Shown here in pieces: positions 2-9,757 of a stretch of 10,000 nt of DNA; position 1 is the first letter of the stretch; each line of letters opens with the position of its first letter. A program made the translations under genes and the position numbers. Source of the DNA: Kiritimatiellota bacterium (GTDB taxonomy: Bacteria > Verrucomicrobiota > Kiritimatiellia > JAAZAB01); NCBI GenBank assembly GCA_008636095.1, contig VSJD01000245.1, positions 1 through 10,000 on the forward strand, written 5' to 3'. The notes under the pieces are model-generated. The model was not told where the DNA came from and ran no database searches. It saw only the letters and a program-made list of their open reading frames with translations.

Positions 2-352
2 AACAGCCAGGGAAGCCTGGGTCGGGTTGCCGGTATTTATGCCAACAACGATACGGTCATCGCCGCGTTTTCCCAGCTCATGAACGTGGGGTACCTGATG
101 GTAAACACCCCCGTGGCCATAGGAATTGCCGGTGGGGTATTAACCCAATTGCAGCCGACGTTTATTCTGAGCAGTAGTCCGGACGGTAAGCACATTGTTC
201 ACGAAAGCATCTCGATCCGACAACTGCTGGCCATCAAGCGTATCTGCCGCCGCCGATGCAATGAACGCTGGCAGGTTATATCCGGTGATAACTATTTGGA
301 CGAACGTCTTACGGCCGATGATGTGGCGGCAATTTATAATCGAAATTATTAA
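2..352 (+). CDS. C-terminal part of an unrecognised protein (5' end outside window)
   Basis: The frame is open from the first bases of the window to a TAA at 350-352, giving at least 116 residues; the true start lies upstream. An internal ATG at 80 has no special claim to be the start, because the frame upstream of it is coding-like. The N-terminal half of the visible part is mildly hydrophobic and glycine/valine/alanine-rich (around codons 20-50). It is followed by a soluble tail with a basic cluster (ICRRRC near codon 80) and the acidic end DERLTADDVAAIYNRNY. I do not recognise the family. The stop codon overlaps the AAGGG ribosome-binding site of the following STAS gene, whose ATG is only 9 bases downstream, so the two are almost certainly co-transcribed and possibly translationally coupled. 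A role linked to the STAS/acetyl-CoA synthetase module is inference from position alone. Confidence 0.75.
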   Translation, partial: NSQGSLGRVAGIYANNDTVIAAFSQLMNVGYLMVNTPVAIGIAGGVLTQLQPTFILSSSPDGKHIVHESISIRQLLAIKRICRRRCNERWQVISGDNYLDERLTADDVAAIYNRNY

Positions 353-688: not shown

Positions 689-720
689 GACCTTGTCAAT
701 TTTTCAAAGAGGTAATGCTT

Positions 721-3039
721 ATGATAAATTTTATTTTTGATCCGGCCAACCAAACGCTGATGTGTAAGTTCGCCGGCGAATTAAACAGCAAAACCTGCGC
801 CGACATGGCGCCCCTGATGGACCGGAAACTGGCCGAGGTGGCGCCAGCCTCTTCCGTTAAAGCGCCTTCCAAGACGTTGAAAATTATTTTTGACCTCGAA
901 CAGGCGCCGTATGTTTCCTCCGTTTTTTTAAGAATCGTGCTTTTAACCGCCAAAAAAGTGACGCGCGGCAATTTTTCCGTCGCCAAGGCTTGTCCGTTCG
1001 TCAAAGACCTTTTCCGGACATCCGGACTGGAACAACTGTTACGGGACCCCTCGGGCAACATCGAAAGCACGTTGCACGAAAGCCGTGTGTTCCCGCCGCC
1101 GCAGGCTTTTTCAGCCCAGGCACGTTTGAGTTCCAAAGACGACTATCTGAAGGCCTATCGCCGATCGGTGGAACAGCCCGAAGAATTCTGGGCGGAACAG
1201 GCCAAGCAATTACTGGTATGGGACAAACCCTGGGATAAAGTTCTGGAATGGAAGGCGCCCCACGCGACTTGGTTCAGCGGAGGACAACTGAATGCCAGCG
1301 CAAACTGTCTGGACAAGCACCTGAATACGCCGAACGCGAACAAGGCGGCCCTCATTTGGGAAGGCGAGCCCGATTCCAGCACCAATCCCGGCGAGGAACG
1401 CGTGCTCACCTACCGGCAACTCTACCACCAGGTGTGCCGGTTCGCCAACGTGCTCAAGCGCAACGGGGTCGGCAAGGGCAACCGGGTCCTGCTCTACATG
1501 CCGATGGTGCCCGAGGCCGTGGTGGCGATGCTGGCCTGTGCGCGGCTGGGGGCCGTTCATTCGGTCGTCTTCGCCGGATTCAGTGCCCAGTCCGTGGCGG
1601 AGCGTATCAAGGACTGTCAGGCCAAAGTGGTTGTCACCGCCGATGGCGGCTACCGTAAAGGCGCCGTCGTTCAGTTGAAGAAAAACGTGGATGACGCCCT
1701 GAATTGCCAGGATGCCGAGGGACACCCCCTGTGTGCGTCCGTAAAAAAAGTCATCGTCTTGCACCGGACCGGCCTGGACGTGCATATCGAGGAAGGCCGC
1801 GATGTCTGGTGGCACCAGGAATTGGAGTATGTGAACGCCGATTGTGCCCCGGAAATGGTCGCGAGCGAGGATCCCTTATTTATCCTGTACACCAGCGGAT
1901 CCACGGGAAAACCCAAGGGGATCCTGCACACCACCGCCGGCTACCTGCTGGGCGCGACACTCAGTCACCAGGTCATTTTTGACATTCGTGCTACGGACAT
2001 CTTCTGGTGCACGGCCGATATTGGCTGGGTAACCGGCCACAGCTATGTCGTCTACGGCCCGTTAGTTAACGGCGCCACCGTGCTCATGTACGAAGGGGCT
2101 CCCAATTATCCCCAGCCGGACCGGTTCTGGAGCATTATCGAAAAATACGGCGTCACCATCTTCTACACCGCGCCGACCGCCATTCGCGCCTTCATGCAAT
2201 GGGGCAACGAATGGCCGGCCAAACACGACCTTTCGTCCCTGCGCCTGCTGGGTACCGTGGGCGAACCAATCAATCCGCAGGCTTGGATCTGGTATTATGA
2301 GATCATCGGCGGCCAGCGCTGTCCCATTGTGGATACATGGTGGCAGACGGAAACCGGGTCCATCATGATTTCCACCTGCCCTGGCGCGCTGGCCACCAAA
2401 CCGGGATCAGCCGGCCTGCCTTTCTTCGGCGTCCAGGCAGAAGTGGTCAATGAAGCAGGCCGGGCGGTGCCTGCCAATGCGGGCGGCAAACTGATTGTGC
2501 GCCACCCCTGGCCCAGCATGTTGCGCGGCGTGTGGGGCGATCCCGACCGTTTCCAATGGACTTATTGGAATGATTTCCCTGGAAATTATTTTACCGGAGA
2601 CGGCGCGCGCACCGATGCCGACGGCTATTTCTGGATCATGGGCCGAATTGATGACGTGATCAACGTGTCTGGACACCGCATTGGAACCGCCGAAGTTGAG
2701 AGCGCGCTCGTCAGCAATCCGGCTGTGGCGGAAGCGGCGGTAGTGGGCCGCGCCGATGACATCAAGGGCTCAGGCTTGGTCGCCTTTGTGACGCTCAAAT
2801 GCGGCAAGAAACCCAGTCCGGAATTACGCGAAGCGCTTTGCAACCACGTGTGCAAGGAAGTCGGCGCGTTCGCCAAACTCGATGAGATTCGGTTTGCCGA
2901 AGCCTTGCCCAAAACCCGTTCGGGAAAGATTATGCGTCGCTTGCTGAAACAGGTGGCCGCCGGCACGGAAATCACCGGGGATGTGACCACCCTGGAAGAC
3001 TTTGGTGTCCTGGAACGTCTGAGCGGTGAAGAAGGCTGA
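721..3039 (+). CDS. acs: STAS domain fused to AMP-forming acetyl-CoA synthetase
   Basis: The C-terminal ~640 residues are a full-length acetate-CoA ligase (acetate + ATP + CoA to acetyl-CoA + AMP + PPi, via acetyl-AMP), close to the 652 residues of the E. coli enzyme. The family N-terminal segment starts around S138. The P-loop is Y390-G400 ([11 protein letters not shown]), [10 protein letters not shown] ends at 546, FTGDGA is 624-629, GRIDD is 641-645, and PKTRSGK ends in K736. K736 is the adenylation-catalytic lysine, which is also the usual regulatory acetylation site. Acetate-pocket residues of the Salmonella enzyme (Val, Thr, Val, Trp) match V437, T438, V513 and W541, so acetate is the likely substrate. 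Residues 1-110 are a STAS domain related to the preceding protein (IIFDLE, then S66-S67, then RIVLLTAKK and RGNF). ATG 721 is chosen over ATG 715 because AAAGAGG at 706-712 lies 8 bases upstream of it. Both domains are in one uninterrupted frame. A STAS domain is not part of the usual Acs architecture, and its role here is unknown. Confidence 0.93.
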
Positions 3040-3143: not shown

Positions 3144-4028
3144 ATGGCACTCACCGAAAGAGAGCGAACGGAACGGACCGCCTTAACCGGCGTGATTACC
3201 TGCGCTCTCGGGTTAGTGCTCATCATCATCTCCGTCATCTTTTCCAACTCGCTGGTGCAGATGGCGGACTTGTTCAATTCCTTCCTGGAGTTCATCTCGA
3301 TCTCGCTCTCGTGGCTGACCCTGCGCGCGCTCCGCAAGGATAACCGGGCGGTTTTCAATTACGGCCTGGGCAAAATCGAAAATATTTCCAGCCTGTTTAT
3401 CGGCGTATTCATGCTGGTCAGCATCCTGATCATGGTGCTCCTGATCGGATACCGACTGCTACACCTCGTGCGTATCCAGGGATTCGGCGTCTGGCTGGGC
3501 ATAGCCTGCACGCTGATTTTCGGCACGCTCAATGCCGTTTTGTGGGTGAAGAGCCTGCGGCATAAGCGGGCCGCGCCTTCACCGATCGTGGATGCTCAGT
3601 GCCGGCTTTTCGCGGTCAAAACCGTCGGTAATACCTGCATGTTCTTCACGTTCGTACTCAGCCTTTCCCTGGATTACCACTGGGCCCTGTATCTGGATCC
3701 GCTGGCCTCCTGCATCACCGTGGGGTTCATGAGCCAGAGCACCTGGAAACTCATCCGGCATTCCATTCACGACCTGCTGGACCGCTCGCTGGATGAATCA
3801 TTGCAGGTGCTGATTAACAAGCAGTTAGTCGGTTTTTTTAACGAATACACGGCCTTGGACAGCGTGCGTTCCCGGTATTCCGGCCAAAACGTGTTTATCG
3901 AAATCTTTCTGGGCTTCGACTCCCAACGGCCGCTGGCGGAAGTTCAGGAAATCACCGACACCATCAAGCGCAACTTGGAAGCGGACATTCCCCACGCCGA
4001 GGTGCTTGTCATTCCCCGCGCCCAGTGA
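3144..4028 (+). CDS. Cation diffusion facilitator (CDF) family protein with altered metal site
   Basis: This 294-residue membrane protein has the CDF layout: six predicted transmembrane segments (about 14-33, 36-60, 80-105, 114-135, 155-176, 182-202), the YGLGKIEN motif after TM2, LDPLAS in TM6, the HDLLDRSLDE linker (209-218), and a C-terminal ferredoxin-like domain ending IPHAEVLVIP. CDF proteins export Zn, Cd, Co, Fe or Mn in exchange for protons, using a site formed by (H/D)xxxD in TM2 and HxxxD in TM5. By my hand alignment the TM2 pair is N45 and E49, and the TM5 pair is L155 and K159, so the canonical site is largely lost. The fold assignment is strong, but metal transport is not assured. 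The gene sits 104 bases after the synthetase with no visible SD, so it probably has its own promoter. No metal-resistance genes are adjacent. Confidence 0.85.
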   Translation: MALTERERTERTALTGVITCALGLVLIIISVIFSNSLVQMADLFNSFLEFISISLSWLTLRALRKDNRAVFNYGLGKIENISSLFIGVFMLVSILIMVLLIGYRLLHLVRIQGFGVWLGIACTLIFGTLNAVLWVKSLRHKRAAPSPIVDAQCRLFAVKTVGNTCMFFTFVLSLSLDYHWALYLDPLASCITVGFMSQSTWKLIRHSIHDLLDRSLDESLQVLINKQLVGFFNEYTALDSVRSRYSGQNVFIEIFLGFDSQRPLAEVQEITDTIKRNLEADIPHAEVLVIPRAQ

Positions 4029-4116
4029 ATTCCACATATATTGTAATTGTTTCTAAACAGGTGCCATTGTTCGAAAAACAAAGCAACGATGTGTGTTTTT
4101 GCGCAAAGGAAATGTT

Positions 4117-5394
4117 ATGAAATTCGCTTTTTATAAAAAATGTATCACGCCTAAAGTCGGCACAGGTCTGGCTGGTTATACACGCAAACCAACTTCGACC
4201 GGCATCTATGATGATCTGTATCTTCAAATGCTTTTGATGGAAGACGATCAAAGACGCCGTCTGCTTTTAATTTCCGCTGATTTGATCGGTTTTGACGAGT
4301 TGTTTGTAAGAAAATTACGGCGTTGGATTACACTGCAGGATCCCGCTATCAAACCGGAAAATGTGAATTTTAGCGTGACCCATACTCATTGTGGTCCGTG
4401 TACGGTCCATTTTGTTCGGTCGGTAGGCACTCTGAATACTGAGTATTTGCGGTTTTTGGAAGGCGCCATCCATGCGGGGGTGGGGCATCTTGTGCATTCG
4501 CTTGGGACGGGTTCCCTTTATTATGGCAAAGGCCGATGTGCTTTGGCCGTCAATCGGCGCCGCCCGGCAACAAGAACAGTTGATGGTCGCAGGATTGTAC
4601 AATATGAAATGCGTCCCAATCTGCAAGGCTCGGTGGACCATGAACTGGGCGTCCTGTGCATCCGGAACAGATCTGAAGAGATTGTCGTATTAAATTGTGC
4701 CTGTCATCCTACGACGCGCGGCGGATATAATATTTCCGGAGATTATCCGGCTGCGGCAATGAGGGCTTTGCGTTCGGATTCCTATGCCAAAAGAGAAGTG
4801 ATGTTTTTACAGGGCGCGGGAGCTGATTCCAGGGTTCCCTGCATGACGGATGATTGCCTTAGTTTCAGGCCGGGAACTGCGGATGATGTTATTGCATATG
4901 GCAATATTGTTGCGGATGCGGCTCGCCGTATATTGAAAAAAGGGCTTGTCAAAATCCAGCCGGGTTTCAGTGCCGCACGGCTTGTTTTCAAGTTGCCTTA
5001 TGATACCGGTTGGGTGGTGGATGTTCCCCGCAAGGACAAGGAATATTGGGAATTGGTGAAATGGCGTAAAACCCATTTTGGATTATCAGGAGTGCCGATG
5101 GAATGGGTGATATGGAGACTGGGGAATAATTGTGTTATGATGTCTCTGCCGGGCGAGGTGTGCCATGGGATTGGTCTTATGGCTAAAAAGATGATGAATG
5201 TCAAATATCCGTTTTTCCTCGGATATACTAATGGCTTGCCAACCTATATACCAACGGATGCCATAATCCGCGAGGGTGGCTATGAAGGTCTAGAAGCCTT
5301 AAATCCATATGGTCAGCCATACCCCTTTAAAGCCGGTGTGGACAATATATTGAAGGGAACTTTGCAGAAAACTTTTTCCTTGTTGGGAACATGA
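4117..5394 (+). CDS. Neutral/alkaline ceramidase-family hydrolase, catalytic domain only, no signal peptide
   Basis: This 425-residue protein matches the N-terminal catalytic domain of neutral/alkaline non-lysosomal ceramidases, zinc amidases that cleave ceramide to sphingosine and fatty acid. Landmarks in order are THTHCGP (88-94, zinc-ligand histidine region), NCACHPTT with H197, GDYPAAAMRAL (208-218), FLQGAGADSR (230-239, equivalent to the catalytic GDxSP region), SLPGEV with E347, and GYTNGLPTYIPT with Y377 followed by GGYE. H, H, E and Y ligands are thus present. The nucleophile region reads ADSR, with the Ser one place earlier than in the Pseudomonas enzyme, so true ceramidase activity is doubtful; many bacterial relatives act on unknown amides. 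There is no signal peptide or C-terminal Ig-like domain, so it is probably cytoplasmic. ATG 4117 is chosen because AAAGGA (4105-4110) lies six bases before it; an in-frame GTG at 4093 lacks such a site. Its base composition is more AT-rich than the synthetase. Confidence 0.85.
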   Translation: MKFAFYKKCITPKVGTGLAGYTRKPTSTGIYDDLYLQMLLMEDDQRRRLLLISADLIGFDELFVRKLRRWITLQDPAIKPENVNFSVTHTHCGPCTVHFVRSVGTLNTEYLRFLEGAIHAGVGHLVHSLGTGSLYYGKGRCALAVNRRRPATRTVDGRRIVQYEMRPNLQGSVDHELGVLCIRNRSEEIVVLNCACHPTTRGGYNISGDYPAAAMRALRSDSYAKREVMFLQGAGADSRVPCMTDDCLSFRPGTADDVIAYGNIVADAARRILKKGLVKIQPGFSAARLVFKLPYDTGWVVDVPRKDKEYWELVKWRKTHFGLSGVPMEWVIWRLGNNCVMMSLPGEVCHGIGLMAKKMMNVKYPFFLGYTNGLPTYIPTDAIIREGGYEGLEALNPYGQPYPFKAGVDNILKGTLQKTFSLLGT

Positions 5395-5573
5395 GAATCA
5401 ATCGCTGGCGCATATCAGGTTTGATTAGGCTGAGTTAAAGGAGACACGAACTCACTTTCCATCCGCGCCGGCCCCGGGCCTGTTACCCAGCCGTATCCAG
5501 TTCGTCGTAGTCGTCGGAATACCACGTGTCATGCCAGGCTTGCCAAATTGATCAAACATTTCAAATAATCCGC
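5395..5573. other. Intergenic spacer with gene relics and palindromes
   Basis: This spacer changes composition sharply: AT-moderate to about 5454, then GC-rich to about 5525. It holds an orphan Shine-Dalgarno-like AAAGGAG (5437-5443) with no start codon at a usable distance, inside a TGAGTT/AACTCA inverted repeat (5431-5436 with 5449-5454). An 11-base palindrome GGCCCCGGGCC lies at 5470-5480. On the minus strand, 5483-5551 reads as a short, codon-like peptide ending YSDDYDELDTAG and stop, preceded by an in-frame stop, possibly the tail of a deleted gene. No intact gene is seen. Confidence 0.4.
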
Positions 5574-6602
5574 ATGAATATTTCATTTAAAAATCTGAAG
5601 GAAATGCGCCTTGTCATTGTCTTTGTGCTGATCAGCATCGTCTTGGGCGGCGCCTTGTCCTCATTAAATAGCGGCCATGTTTCTCAGAAATCGATTGTCA
5701 CCGGCGGACTTATTGGATTTTGCATAGCTTCCATTTGTGCCGTTGGCCATTTCGCTTTCCTTTATCGACTCCGGTATCTTCCGTTTGCCGCCCATTTGCT
5801 TCTCAGCACCGCCTATTTCACGGCCGTGGCATCGACGGTTATGGCGGTTAAATTTATTTTTTTTGATCGTATCCACGACATGACCACTTGGACACATAAT
5901 CTTGTTTCCGCGACCCTCTTGACCCTTGGGCTCAGTTTTACAAGCGCTTTTGTTTTAATGCTTCGTCGTATGCTGGGACCCAACGTGTTGCTGAATTTCT
6001 TCACCGGCCGCTACTACAAGCCGGTTGAAGAAGAACGCATCTTCATGTTTGTGGATATTGTCGCATCCACGACAATTGCCGAAAAGATCGGCCACCTGAA
6101 CTTTCACGTTTTCCTGAATGATTATTTTTATGACATTACCGATGCCATCCTGTCTGCCGAAGGTGAAATCTACAAGTATGTCGGCGATGAAATCATCGTC
6201 AGCTGGAGGGTTTCCGACAGCATCAGCAACGCCCGATGTATTCAATCGTTTTTTGAAATCAAGCAGAGCATTGAAAAGAAAAAACAAACGTACCTGAATA
6301 AATTCGGGTTCTTTCCCTATTGCCGGGCCGGCCTGCACTGTGGCCCTGTCATTGTCGGCGAAATGGGAGATTTCAAGCGGGAAATTGCTTTTCTCGGCGA
6401 CACGGTGAATACCACCGCCAGGATTCAAGAAGCCTGCAGGGAATACGGAACCGATTTGCTGGTATCCTCGGAATTGCTTAACAAGCTCCAGCTACCCCGT
6501 GATTATAAATTGACAAGCCTGGGAGAAATTCGGTTAAAGGGCAAAGATAAACCGATGGAATTATTCGGCATCGAAAAATCACAAGCGGAATTACTGCAAT
6601 GA
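5574..6602 (+). CDS. Membrane-anchored class III adenylate/guanylate cyclase
   Basis: This 342-residue protein has an N-terminal membrane region with about four hydrophobic segments (roughly 12-32, 40-64, 68-98, 108-131) followed by a cytoplasmic class III nucleotide cyclase domain (about 152-335). Metal-binding aspartates are D161 (FMFVDIVAST) and D205 (YKYVGDEIIV), 44 residues apart as in characterised enzymes. The purine-specifying lysine position is K201. Transition-state residues are N279 and R283 in GDTVNTTARIQ. All catalytic residues for a self-sufficient homodimer are present. The second purine-specifying position, normally Asp or Thr seven residues before the Asn, is Ala (A272), so cAMP versus cGMP is uncertain. 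The membrane part is not a recognised sensor domain such as CHASE or HAMP. ATG 5574 is chosen because it directly precedes a basic N-terminus and the first hydrophobic segment; an in-frame GTG at 5526 would add 16 residues overlapping spacer relics. Neither start has a strong SD. It is probably a single-gene unit. Confidence 0.9.
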   Translation: MNISFKNLKEMRLVIVFVLISIVLGGALSSLNSGHVSQKSIVTGGLIGFCIASICAVGHFAFLYRLRYLPFAAHLLLSTAYFTAVASTVMAVKFIFFDRIHDMTTWTHNLVSATLLTLGLSFTSAFVLMLRRMLGPNVLLNFFTGRYYKPVEEERIFMFVDIVASTTIAEKIGHLNFHVFLNDYFYDITDAILSAEGEIYKYVGDEIIVSWRVSDSISNARCIQSFFEIKQSIEKKKQTYLNKFGFFPYCRAGLHCGPVIVGEMGDFKREIAFLGDTVNTTARIQEACREYGTDLLVSSELLNKLQLPRDYKLTSLGEIRLKGKDKPMELFGIEKSQAELLQ

Positions 6603-6831
6603 CGTATCCGCGCGGTTTAAAAGCGGCGTTTGTGGAAATAATAATTTTGTTTCCAAATTAAATGAATAAATGCTAATTTTGCCATACTTGATGGGGTTTA
6701 TTTTATTTGGGAAGATTGGTTTGAGGGCGTTAATCCAAGCTTGATTTTAAGAAGGATTTAGTCATGATGCTGAAATCGTGCTAAATTGTCAGTCAATAGT
6801 TCGATGCAAAAAAATATTTGATGGAAAATAG
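6603..6831. other. AT-rich spacer upstream of the ATP-grasp gene
   Basis: No gene longer than a few codons is seen. A TGGAAA/TTTCCA inverted repeat (6633-6638 with 6650-6655, loop 11) follows the cyclase gene but lacks a T-tract, so it is a poor terminator candidate. At 6751-6755 GAAGG precedes ATG ATG at 6764, opening a six-codon reading frame that ends in TAA at 6782-6784. This could be a leader peptide or chance. No convincing -35/-10 pair was found. Confidence 0.4.
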
Positions 6832-8121
6832 ATGAACGGAAATCACAAAAAATTTCTTTTTGTATCTTTTGAGAGCCTGAGCGGTGACCTGGCCTGGCAG
6901 ATAAAAAAAGAGGGTCATGAAGTGAAGGTGTTCATAGAGAAAGATTCGGACAAGGATGTTTACGAAGGAATTCTCGACAAGGTCGATGACTGGAAAAAGC
7001 ATGTAGACTGGGCGGATGTTATTGTTTTTGATGATATAGGCTTTGGTGATGTTGCAGAGTCATTGCGCGCTTCAGGGAAGATTGTAATCGGCGGAAGCAA
7101 GTATGCTGACAAGCTTGAAGAAGACCGGGAGTTTGGCCAGAATGAGATGCAAAAAGCCGGCATGTCTGTGCTTTCTCATTGGGACTTCACGGATTTTGAC
7201 TCGGCCATAAGTTTTATAAAATCAAATCCGGGAAGATATATTTTCAAGCCTTCGGGAAACACGGCTTCTGACCAGAAAGGCATATTGTTCCTTGGCCAGG
7301 AAGAGGACGGGAAAGACCTTGTAGAGATACTCGAGCAAAACAAGAAAACCTGGGCAAGGAAAATAAAGAAATTCCAGCTGCAGAAGATGGCAGAAGGAGT
7401 AGAAGTAGCGGTTGGCGCGTTCTTCAACGGAAAGGATTTTATCTATCCTATTAATGTGAATTTTGAGCATAAAAAGTTGTTTCCCGGAGACCTTGGCCCA
7501 TATACCGGCGAGATGGGTACTTTGATGTACTGGTCTCCCGAGAACGAGATATTCAGAAACACACTGATGAAAATAAAGCCTGAACTGGCGAAGTCAGGAT
7601 ATATTGGTTATATAGATATAAATTGCATAGCGAATGCAAGGGGCATCTACCCGCTTGAGTTCACATCGCGTTTTGGATATCCCACTATAAGCATACAGAT
7701 AGAAGGCGTTTCGAGTGAATGGGGAGATTTTCTTTACAGGCTCGCGAAGCAAGAAAAGCCCGAGTTGAAAATTAAGAAAGGCTTCCAGATAGGGGTCGCT
7801 ATTGTTATCCCGCCATTTCCATATGAGGATAAACGGGAAGCCGCGATATATCAGGATCTCTCAATACTTTTCAGGAAACAGAATCTTGATGGAGTTCGTC
7901 TTGGCGATGTAAAAATAGTAAATGGTACTTGGGCTGTTGCAGGAGATTCAGGGTATATCTTGGTGATCACAGGATCAGGAATAACGGTGGAAGAAGCCAG
8001 GAGGCAGGTGTATTCAAGAGTAAATAACATAATCCTCCAGAACATGTATTACCGGACGGATATAGGCATCAGGTGGCTCGGAGATTCAGACCGGCTACAG
8101 ATGTGGGGATATTTATACTGA
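6832..8121 (+). CDS. PurD-like ATP-grasp ligase family protein
   Basis: This 429-residue protein is the length of glycinamide ribonucleotide synthetase (PurD: phosphoribosylamine + glycine + ATP) and follows its plan: an N-terminal Rossmann-like domain (FLFVSFESLSGDLAWQI at 8-24), an ATP-grasp core with FKPSGNTASDQKGILF (138-153), LGPYTGEMGTL (221-231, compare PurD GGPNTGGMG), GYIDIN (259-264), PLEFTSRFGYP (274-284, compare EFNxRFGDP), and a C-terminal lobe starting near GVAIVIPPFPY (321-331). Key PurD signatures are changed. The N-terminal GxGGREHA motif is absent, the metal-ligand Asn of EFN is Thr (T278), and the Asp of FGDP is Tyr (Y283). It may therefore be a paralogue ligating another substrate; no purine genes are nearby. 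Start: ATG 6832 with weak GGA six bases upstream. Codon use differs strongly from the synthetase gene: over 20 AUA codons, and most arginines are AGA/AGG. This suggests transfer from an AT-richer, perhaps archaeal or candidate-phylum, donor. Confidence 0.85.
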   Translation: MNGNHKKFLFVSFESLSGDLAWQIKKEGHEVKVFIEKDSDKDVYEGILDKVDDWKKHVDWADVIVFDDIGFGDVAESLRASGKIVIGGSKYADKLEEDREFGQNEMQKAGMSVLSHWDFTDFDSAISFIKSNPGRYIFKPSGNTASDQKGILFLGQEEDGKDLVEILEQNKKTWARKIKKFQLQKMAEGVEVAVGAFFNGKDFIYPINVNFEHKKLFPGDLGPYTGEMGTLMYWSPENEIFRNTLMKIKPELAKSGYIGYIDINCIANARGIYPLEFTSRFGYPTISIQIEGVSSEWGDFLYRLAKQEKPELKIKKGFQIGVAIVIPPFPYEDKREAAIYQDLSILFRKQNLDGVRLGDVKIVNGTWAVAGDSGYILVITGSGITVEEARRQVYSRVNNIILQNMYYRTDIGIRWLGDSDRLQMWGYLY

Positions 8122-8130
8122 TTTGTCCGC

Positions 8131-8234
8131 TTATTTCTTCTCGCCCCGCTTCCTTTTGACTGAAGCCAGATGCCAGTCGTTGTGTCTTTGTTCGATTAAT
8201 TACTCCGGCACCTCGTGTCATATATCGTCTTCAT
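8131..8234 (-). pseudogene. Possible decayed short minus-strand reading frame
   Basis: On the minus strand a good ribosome-binding site, AAGAGG, lies five bases before an ATG at 8234, but the frame stops after 12 codons (8196). A shifted frame further on ends in the protein-like tail DWHLASVKRKRGEKK with its stop at 8131-8133. Joining the two needs a frameshift. This could be a relic of a small gene or chance; no family is recognised. Confidence 0.15.
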
Positions 8235-8250
8235 GCTATCCTCTTGTTTA

Positions 8251-8269
8251 AAAGGGATAAATTCCCTTT
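8251..8269. terminator. Perfect 7-bp inverted repeat, weak terminator candidate
   Basis: AAAGGGA (8251-8257) pairs with TCCCTTT (8263-8269) around a five-base loop. It lies 130 bases after the ATP-grasp gene. On the minus strand the stem is followed by a short T run. The stem is A/T-flanked and only moderately stable. Confidence 0.25.
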
Positions 8270-8306
8270 ATAATTATAACCGGGTATGGCTGAATGTAGG
8301 CCGGCA

Positions 8307-8387
8307 ATTTAACGGAAAAACAATAGGATTCGGATGGTTATAGAAAATAGGCGCCCTGACCTGTCCGCAATATAGCAGGCGTTAAAT
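8307..8387. repeat. 81-bp attC-like imperfect inverted repeat
   Basis: The ends are a perfect 7-bp inverted pair, ATTTAAC (8307-8313) and GTTAAAT (8381-8387). These fit the RYYYAAC and GTTRRRY core-site patterns of integron attC sites, and the spacing is within the usual attC size range. Inside, ATTCGGATGG (8328-8337) can pair with CCTGTCCGCAAT (8360-8371) with bulges, giving an imperfect stem as in attC. No integron integrase or cassette gene is seen, so this may be chance or another palindromic element. Confidence 0.3.
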
Positions 8388-8422
8388 CTGGCTTGCCATG
8401 CGTAGTCCGAAGGGCGAAGGCT

Positions 8423-8589
8423 GGCCTGCCCTCCGTAGCCGCTTTGGGCGTAGGAGGGTGGGCCGTGCAGGGCTTTCCGCCACAGGCGGATCAGCCTGCG
8501 GCTGAGAACCTGCGACTTCTACCGCCCGCCTGCAACGCTATGCGCGTAGCATTGCGGGCAGGTGTGAGATCAACCTGGTGATTTCTCGC
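8423..8589. repeat. GC-rich cluster of five consecutive stem-loops
   Basis: Five inverted repeats follow one another with little space. (1) GGCCTGCCCTCC (8423-8434) pairs with GGAGGGTGGGCC (8453-8464) using two G-T pairs. (2) TCCGCC/GGCGGA (8476-8490) has a three-base loop. (3) TCAGCC/GGCTGA (8491-8505) directly abuts it, also with a three-base loop. (4) GCCCGC (8524-8529) pairs with GCGGGC (8554-8559) enclosing AACGCTA/TAGCATT (one mismatch, six-base loop). (5) GTGAGA (8564-8569) pairs with TCTCGC (8584-8589, one T-G pair). The block is far more GC-rich than its flanks and has no credible protein. It could be a REP/BIME- or MITE-like repeat, a structured RNA, or a folded recombination site. 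No known RNA family is recognised. Confidence 0.55.
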
Positions 8590-8974: not shown

Positions 8975-9757
8975 ATGAAACTTTATATGTTCCAGTGTGG
9001 CATTCTTAAGACCAAAAAGCATCTCATTACAATGGGGCGCGGCATCGGTCAACCATTTGACGTTCCCGTTCCTTTCTTTCTTATTAAGCACCCCCGGGGC
9101 AACGTGCTTTTTGACACGGGGAACGCTCTTGCAGTGGTCAACAATAAGGCCAAGCACTGGGGCACGGTCGTAGAGTCATATGATCCGGTCATGACCAAAG
9201 ACGACTATGTGGTTGCCCAGTTAGCTAAAGTTGGCGTCAAGCCGGAAGAGATTACGCATGTGATTTTTTCCCACTTGCATTTGGATCATGCCGGCGGCAC
9301 GGGTGAATTTTCGAACGCAATTCATTACGTTCAGCGCACCGAAATGCAATATGCTTACATGCCTGACTTTTTTCAGGCGGGAGCCTACATTCGTGCCGAC
9401 TTTGATAAGCCTCATCTCAATTGGCATCTCCTGGAAGGATATCAGGATGATTGTTACGATGTTTTGGGCGATGGCAAACTTCAAATTGTGTTTACACCGG
9501 GCCATAGCCCCGGCCATCAATCTTTGCTGGTTAAGCTTGAGAAGTGGGGTCCAACTCTGTTGACGGGCGACAGTGTCTACACGGAGGAAATTCTGGAGGA
9601 AGACGTTCTGCCAGGGTTGGTCTACAGTCCGCCTGACGCCGTGAAATCAATCAAGAAAATGCGTGATCTGCGCCGGGTTAACGGAGTGCGAATCATTACC
9701 GGGCACGATCCCATTGCTTGGGCTAAGTTCAATCTCGCGCCAGCATGCTATGAATAA
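8975..9757 (+). CDS. Metallo-beta-lactamase-fold N-acyl homoserine lactonase-like hydrolase
   Basis: This 260-residue protein is the size of AHL lactonases such as AiiA, AttM and AiiB, which open the lactone ring of acyl-homoserine lactone signals. All metal-site motifs are present: SHLHLDH (H100, H102, D104, H105), TPGHSPGHQS (H177), LLTGDS (D199, bridging) and ITGHDP (H244). Y202, just after the bridging Asp in GDSVYTEE, matches the substrate-assisting tyrosine of AiiA (SYTKE). The N-terminal stretch, with PFFLIKHPRGNVLFDTGN (33-50), is typical of this subfamily rather than of glyoxalase II or beta-lactamases. No signal peptide is present, so it is cytoplasmic. The ATG at 8975 starts directly with the family-like MKLYMFQCG; its SD is weak. 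It stands alone after a repeat-rich spacer with no luxI/luxR-type gene in view. Activity on AHLs rather than other lactones is inferred from motifs. Confidence 0.88.
   Translation: MKLYMFQCGILKTKKHLITMGRGIGQPFDVPVPFFLIKHPRGNVLFDTGNALAVVNNKAKHWGTVVESYDPVMTKDDYVVAQLAKVGVKPEEITHVIFSHLHLDHAGGTGEFSNAIHYVQRTEMQYAYMPDFFQAGAYIRADFDKPHLNWHLLEGYQDDCYDVLGDGKLQIVFTPGHSPGHQSLLVKLEKWGPTLLTGDSVYTEEILEEDVLPGLVYSPPDAVKSIKKMRDLRRVNGVRIITGHDPIAWAKFNLAPACYE

Follow-up and report, generated by a model that had tools for sequence, protein, structure and literature searches.

The locus described here raises the question of why an acetyl-CoA synthetase (Acs) should begin with a STAS domain, and what such a domain might do there. 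The window, which is the whole stretch of 10,000 nucleotides that was analysed, encodes both in a single open frame. The control of Acs is mostly discussed in terms of transcription and lysine acetylation. A built-in STAS domain, if regulatory, would be a further layer of control beyond these two.

The fusion gene and its domains

The features of the locus are given below in window coordinates.

2 to 352, + strand: 3' part of a gene like that of acetylating acetaldehyde dehydrogenase (ACDH), which begins in the preceding piece of the genome (G000:C67, 8874-10000) and has Phe at the site of the catalytic Cys
362 to 688, + strand: stand-alone F-type STAS protein, 108 aa (PF01740, E 2.4e-5)
721 to 3039, + strand: STAS-AcsA fusion gene, 772 aa with its stop at 3039 (774 aa from the in-frame ATG 715)
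721 to 1056, + strand: F-type STAS domain with the loop S-x-F-x-R, some 112 residues (profile to SpoIIAA, AlphaFold2)
919 to 921, + strand: Ser codon aligned with SpoIIAA Ser58, Ser67 from ATG 721 (alignment to PDB SpoIIAA)
1144 to 1308, + strand: ACAS_N, the start of the ordinary acetyl-CoA synthetase (PF16177, residues 144-198)
1336 to 2532, + strand: AMP-binding domain (PF00501, residues 208-606)
2692 to 2928, + strand: AMP-binding C-terminal domain, AMP-binding_C (PF13193, residues 660-738)
2926 to 2928, + strand: conserved Lys of PKTRSGK (alignment to the Salmonella Acs chain)

The open frame runs from 715 to 3039 (+) and encodes 774 aa when counted from ATG 715. The likelier start is ATG 721, because the sequence AAAGAGG (706-712) is well spaced from it and homologues begin there. 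Residues are numbered from ATG 715 by default, so that Ser67 counted from ATG 721 is Ser69.

Residues 116-771 match acetate--CoA ligase models well above their curated cut-offs (TIGR02188, 987 bits against 725; NF001208, 1033 bits against 657). The N-terminus of an ordinary Acs corresponds to about residue 116, and the STAS segment of about 115 residues is therefore an added domain. Aligned with Salmonella Acs, the Acs part of about 659 C-terminal residues keeps the ATP-binding, WWQTETG and PKTRSGK motifs. These catalytic motifs are invariant in all 16 aligned fusions, which suggests that the Acs of the fusions still works. Like the acetate--CoA ligases of TIGR02188, the protein comprises a whole enzyme, in which the three Pfam domains and PKTRSGK are all present; what sets it apart from them is the additional STAS domain, about 112 residues long, at its N-terminus. 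By these matches, STAS-AcsA is a normal, complete acetyl-CoA synthetase to which a STAS domain of the anti-sigma-antagonist type has been added. The second-best Acs match in the genome of the window (3.8 Mb in 357 pieces, 87% complete) is a 612-aa frame with 43% identity, covering residues 266-648 of the Acs part.

The original prediction, made from the letters of the window, had read one frame of about 110 STAS-like residues followed by a full synthetase, starting at 721 and with every catalytic motif intact. It was right in each respect: the two parts are about 112 residues and a complete AcsA, the start agrees with the likelier ATG, and the motifs are confirmed by the Salmonella Acs alignment and by 16 of 16 fusions.

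Evidence for a STAS domain

The domain search that the prediction had proposed recovers ACAS_N, AMP-binding and AMP-binding_C, and PF01740 stays under threshold when the protein is taken alone. The N-terminal segment matches PF01740 with an E-value of 0.038 within the full-length protein and of 0.0017 when cut out, both under the gathering score. At E<=0.05 the match is present in 12 of 16 full-length fusions. At E<=0.01, STAS_2 is matched by 17 of 20 family members and STAS by 15. A profile of this 20-member family finds eight distinct PDB sequences at E<=0.01, with SpoIIAA as the best (4.4e-9), and the names of the eight are only those of anti-sigma antagonists, STAS or stage II sporulation proteins. 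Structure prediction, also proposed at the outset, is compatible with this. The AlphaFold2 model of the segment is a beta-alpha domain with the matching order of beta and alpha elements (pLDDT 85.4, pTM 0.80). The assignment to STAS is thus weak from the single sequence and clear at the level of the family, where it can be called firm.

STAS domains are found in several kinds of protein. SpoIIAA and RsbV, the antagonists, resemble the domain described here in the STAS fold, as judged by profile, and in the conserved phospho-acceptor Ser. They differ in the loop, which is S-x-G-L there and S-x-F-x-R here; moreover, a metabolic enzyme is here fused or co-encoded, and no sigma-factor gene was noticed among the annotated neighbours. 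In RsbR-type stressosome proteins STAS and another domain share one chain, in the order sensor then STAS. STAS-Acs instead carries its STAS domain at the N-terminus, ahead of an intact enzyme.

The STAS domains of the SulP/SLC26 type belong to membrane transporters. This type is ruled out for the window's protein, in which Pfam shows only STAS and Acs domains and no membrane transport domain. There is one likeness, in that a STAS domain touches a component of acyl metabolism: PMC8748788, in a passage that cites Babu 2010, has the STAS domain of E. coli YchM (SulP/SLC26) bound to acyl carrier protein.

Two subfamilies can be told apart by the loop, and the labels are coined here: F-type for S-x-F-x-R, and G-type for the ordinary, SpoIIAA-like S-x-G-L-R. 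All 58 F-type domains, and likewise all 16 aligned fusions, have a Ser at the position of SpoIIAA Ser58. In the 58 F-type genes Phe stands at +2 in 57 (one Tyr) and Arg at +4 in 57 (one Met); the split between F- and G-type follows in part from the models that did the sorting. When the STAS domains are placed on a tree, 11 G-type rows fall on one side (99/86), most of the tree being poorly resolved. Three loci (L039, L042 and L043) repeat others (L076, L137 and L139) and were counted once; the STAS domain of L152 sits in an over-long chance frame.

Spread and descent of the fusion

The fusion occurs in ten genomes overall, two of them with incomplete copies. Among the 345 genomes of the class, the complete form is present in the genome of the window (G000), G003, G008, G048, G064 and G076. 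In G005 the STAS domain lacks its first ~57 residues, and in G340 a contig end cuts the gene, which is partly masked. Sampling 387 genomes of the phylum adds G434 and G600. A phylum draw of equal size contains 162 genomes that match Acs at E<=1e-140; the fused form is found in 6 of the 162. Within the genus of the window, 2 of 5 genomes carry it. Two protein searches gave 5 and 7 clusters of fusions.

The N-terminal part of the fusions found elsewhere is 48-86% identical to that of the window. An assembly artefact is unlikely because the same fusion occurs in these other genomes. A fresh local fusion was rejected on the tree of Acs domains, in which the 18 fused domains form one clade. This holds against 17 unfused domains and against 30 (SH-aLRT 99), the larger set lacking 5 of 18 newly fetched unfused loci whose longest ORF was not the Acs frame. 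L212 was lost for the same reason, and the unfused loci L210, L213, L215, L216 and L218 were set aside. The Acs tree also omits P0003 and P0035, which are the same as the proteins of G064 and G434. On the STAS tree, which is poorly resolved over 105 columns, a single clade of fused domains was not recovered, and the 16 rows need three changes.

Between the window's genome and G003 of the same genus, the fused STAS domain has a dN/dS of 0.16; the values for Acs and the stand-alone STAS protein are 0.10 and 0.24. The fused domain is, by this measure, under purifying selection. Its identity between the two genomes is 82%, that of Acs 92%. In all 16 fusions S68, S69, F71 and R73 are invariant. The fusion is a conserved feature of a single Acs clade. 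It is old, and it belongs to a broader association. The architecture that the prediction had singled out is real, and it is no lone oddity.

Two of these loci have further features. In G005 (L028 3617-5770 (-) and upstream) an ACDH runs out of frame into a STAS-Acs without ~57 residues, a junction that may be either a real deletion or an assembly collapse; a protein cluster with 11 members (P0005) starts at the same place as this shortened protein. In G048 (L027 7201-12069 (-)) STAS-Acs follows a same-strand set of DctP/DctQ/DctM TRAP genes and genes for Usp, ferredoxin-like and cupin proteins.

Association of F-type STAS with ACDH

Upstream of the fusion the gene order is ACDH-like, stand-alone STAS, STAS-Acs. 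The stand-alone STAS gene follows the end of the ACDH-like gene by 10 bp, and its own end is 33 bp from ATG 721. The stand-alone domain shares 30% identity with the fused one and belongs to the same S-x-F-x-R subfamily; its Ser65 (554-556) is the equivalent of SpoIIAA Ser58. Divergently upstream (L032) lie a bifunctional AdhE (5548-8175 (-)) and an ordinary G-type STAS gene (8239-8586 (-)). The pair of AdhE and a directly adjoining G-type STAS gene is found in four genomes of the window's family (L032, L025, L232 and L263).

This arrangement is one example of an association centred on ACDH, which the original prediction did not note. Among the 38 non-seed F-type genes, that is, those outside the set used to build the profile, 20 are fused to Acs (3) or to ACDH (1) or have an ACDH within 3 kb (16). 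In 12 of the 16 unfused cases the distance is 16-95 bp. The other 18 show no Acs or ACDH link in the stretches fetched. Such a link is found for 0 of 33 G-type control genes at 28 loci (Fisher p 2.9e-7, with genes that are not fully independent), the controls being the next lower-scoring matches of the same search and no random draw. Counted by genome, 15 of the 23 non-seed genomes or records hold a linked case. An ACDH-type match as such is present in 104 of 374 genomes.

Seen from the enzymes, a grouping by similarity and length gives 17 monofunctional AdhE-like ACDHs, and 16 of them have an F-type STAS domain next to them or in the same protein; the exception is G380:C48. At 22 AdhE-length loci no F-type neighbour was found, with G-type STAS there in the four genomes of the window's family, and no STAS was seen at 13 EutE-like loci. 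ACDH or AdhE fragments at contig ends (e.g. G407, G582, G081, G201, G572 and G586) are unclassed and stand outside the 17 and the 22. A C-terminal tail, [YF][ND]-x-N plus one or two residues, is present in 20 of 21 AdhE-like ACDHs. In G492 (L151 1812-3584 (-)) ACDH and STAS share one 590-aa frame, and a linker replaces the usual tail. The pair of ACDH and F-type STAS also occurs in Bacteroidales and Eremiobacterota records, and in G434 an Fe-alcohol dehydrogenase lies 5 bp from STAS-Acs. By gene context, then, F-type STAS domains are attached, fused or co-encoded, to enzymes of acetaldehyde, acetyl-CoA and acetate, with ACDH as the core partner. The distinction between S-x-F-x-R, often with ACDH or Acs, and the ordinary S-x-G-L-R is a testable sequence rule.

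Some F-type STAS genes have other neighbours. IlvD (dihydroxy-acid dehydratase) is near those of L029 and L080, with L081 alike by eye only. A homocysteine methyltransferase/MTHFR protein is found in L079, an AMP-binding ligase in L031, and a response regulator in L124, with L122 and L123 alike by eye only.

ACDH genes without the catalytic Cys

We take the catalytic Cys of ACDH to be the C in FDNG-x-x-C-A-S-E-Q. In the ACDH-like gene of the window (2-352 together with L032 8874-10000 (+)) the site reads FDNGTLFAGEQ, with Phe in place of Cys. It reads FDNGMLLAGEQ (Leu) in G003 (L025 7084-8562) and FDNGTLFASEQ (Phe) in G008 (L026 2478-4184), and the Cys is replaced by Asn in G382 (L139 2534-3964) and by Trp in Eremiobacterota (L041 6335-7978). 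Of the 21 F-type-associated ACDHs with a readable site, 5 have lost the Cys and 16 keep it; an ACDH fragment of G005, from the window's own family, has it intact. The five genes that lost it are otherwise whole. The window's ACDH-like gene is equal in length to its G003 relative, keeps its tail and has a dN/dS of 0.22. The Cys was apparently lost in three lineages, counted by taxonomy, one of them that of the window. These Cys-less proteins favour a role of ACDH as a scaffold or sensor.

Kinase and phosphatase genes

In known partner switching, as PMC8256260 describes it, the equivalent Ser is phosphorylated by the kinase and returned to its unmodified state by a phosphatase. The main text of that review contains none of the words metabol-, enzyme, fused and fusion.

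As with SpoIIAA and RsbV, genes for an RsbW-type kinase and a SpoIIE-type phosphatase adjoin some stand-alone F-type relatives. RsbW is beside an F-type STAS gene, with no G-type gene there, at six loci (G497, G503, G453, G382, G380:C40 and the Eremiobacterota record). Five of the six have a SpoIIE-type gene within 3 kb (not G382), and five have an ACDH (not G380:C40). The RsbW proteins at F-type loci score 78-82 bits with HATPase_c_2 and keep the ATP-binding motifs. Within 3 kb, RsbW is absent for 31 of 38 non-seed F-type genes and present for 26 of 33 G-type controls. The window's genome has four HATPase_c_2 matches above cut-off and three SpoIIE matches. None lies in pieces C66-C69, and hence none at the window's locus. 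In G064 RsbW and SpoIIE genes adjoin STAS-Acs, RsbW being 378 bp away and overlapping a G-type STAS gene. No fused STAS-Acs gene is in an operon with a kinase among the fusions examined. A dedicated RsbW clade for F-type loci was not resolved, the six F-linked rows needing three changes on a weak tree.

Possible roles of the STAS domain

The reading favoured here, in which belief and doubt are evenly balanced, is that F-type STAS domains form a partner-switching module on enzymes of acetaldehyde and acetate, with control through the conserved Ser. An RsbW-type kinase would phosphorylate this Ser (Ser67 from ATG 721), and a SpoIIE-type phosphatase would reverse the modification. Depending on their phosphorylation state, the STAS domains would dock to or leave their partners, such as the kinase or a STAS/ACDH assembly. 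Docking could in this way couple the activation of acetate to an upstream signal. We infer the phosphorylation, the choice of partner, the effect on Acs and the place of the enzyme as output, sensor or scaffold. The SpoIIAA-like profile, the Ser in 58 of 58 F-type domains, the six RsbW loci, the dN/dS of 0.16, the RsbW- and SpoIIE-type proteins in the window's genome and the linkage to ACDH or Acs (20 of 38 against 0 of 33) speak for such switching. Against it stand the 31 of 38 F-type genes without RsbW within 3 kb, the lack of a fused STAS-Acs in a kinase operon, the missing clade of RsbW beside F-type genes and the presence of the fusion in only 2 of 5 genomes of the genus. The original prediction had proposed that Acs may be switched or localised through STAS partners. 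This proposal is supported in part: the neighbouring STAS and ACDH genes, the invariant Ser and the RsbW and SpoIIE genes beside some stand-alone relatives elsewhere fit it, but Acs may be a sensor or scaffold instead, and the window's ACDH-like neighbour lacks the catalytic Cys.

The domains might instead serve as pairing tags that join Acs, ACDH and alcohol dehydrogenase, so that acetyl-CoA or acetaldehyde is passed on and phosphorylation is secondary or lost. The 16 of 17 ACDHs that adjoin or are fused with F-type STAS would be expected of such a scaffold, as would the single ACDH-STAS frame of G492, the alcohol dehydrogenase next to STAS-Acs in G434, the many F-type genes without a nearby kinase gene, and an ACDH tail that is conserved in 20 of 21 proteins and absent from the G492 fusion. 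A bare tag, however, would not need its Ser kept in all 58 domains, and some F-type domains lie beside genes for a kinase and a phosphatase; a scaffold role is rather unlikely. In another proposal the enzyme is the input: its active or dead part would read acetyl-CoA, CoA, NAD or acetaldehyde, and STAS would relay this to an RsbW-type kinase and on to a sigma factor or other target. A whole gene with a dN/dS of 0.22 in the window, in one of the three lineages that lost the Cys, is what a non-catalytic subunit would look like. The ACDH-STAS protein of G492 has the order sensor then STAS, as RsbR-type proteins do. There is also a precedent in Chlamydia, where partner switching is described in PMC11619594 as sensing metabolites through RsbU. 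The Acs motifs kept in 16 of 16 fusions and the Cys kept in 16 of 21 ACDHs speak against a sensor, and no sigma-factor gene was noticed in passing among the annotated neighbours; this proposal is improbable on balance. Finally, the STAS part could be a functionless relic or a local accident. From G000 to G003 it has changed more quickly than Acs (82% against 92% identity), and the segment alone scores poorly with Pfam. The single clade of 18 fused Acs domains, the dN/dS of 0.16 and the four residues (S68, S69, F71 and R73) invariant in all 16 fusions make this very hard to believe.

If partner switching is the right reading, a mechanism known from the control of sigma factors would act directly on carbon metabolism. 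It can be proposed tentatively, with doubt somewhat outweighing belief, that these genes represent an undescribed module between signalling and metabolism. STAS antagonists of a distinct subfamily would sit on acetaldehyde and acetate enzymes, switching would act on or read from these enzymes and not only a sigma factor, and in at least three lineages ACDH would have given up catalysis to become a signalling subunit. Among open-licence PMC papers no description of this combination was found. The dead ACDHs make the question of sensor or scaffold answerable with purified proteins.

Other features of the window

Scans for promoters and terminators gave chance level. The window holds no Rfam match at the gathering threshold, no tRNA and no telling match to PHROGs.

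Further genes downstream of the fusion include the following.

3144 to 4028, + strand: cation-efflux transporter
4093 to 5394, + strand: weak neutral-ceramidase-like protein
5526 to 6602, + strand: protein with an adenylate/guanylate cyclase domain
6832 to 8121, + strand: ATP-grasp protein related to PurD, far under the PurD cut-off (106 of 288 bits)
8975 to 9757, + strand: metallo-beta-lactamase-fold protein near AttM-type lactonases (343 bits, cut-off 390)
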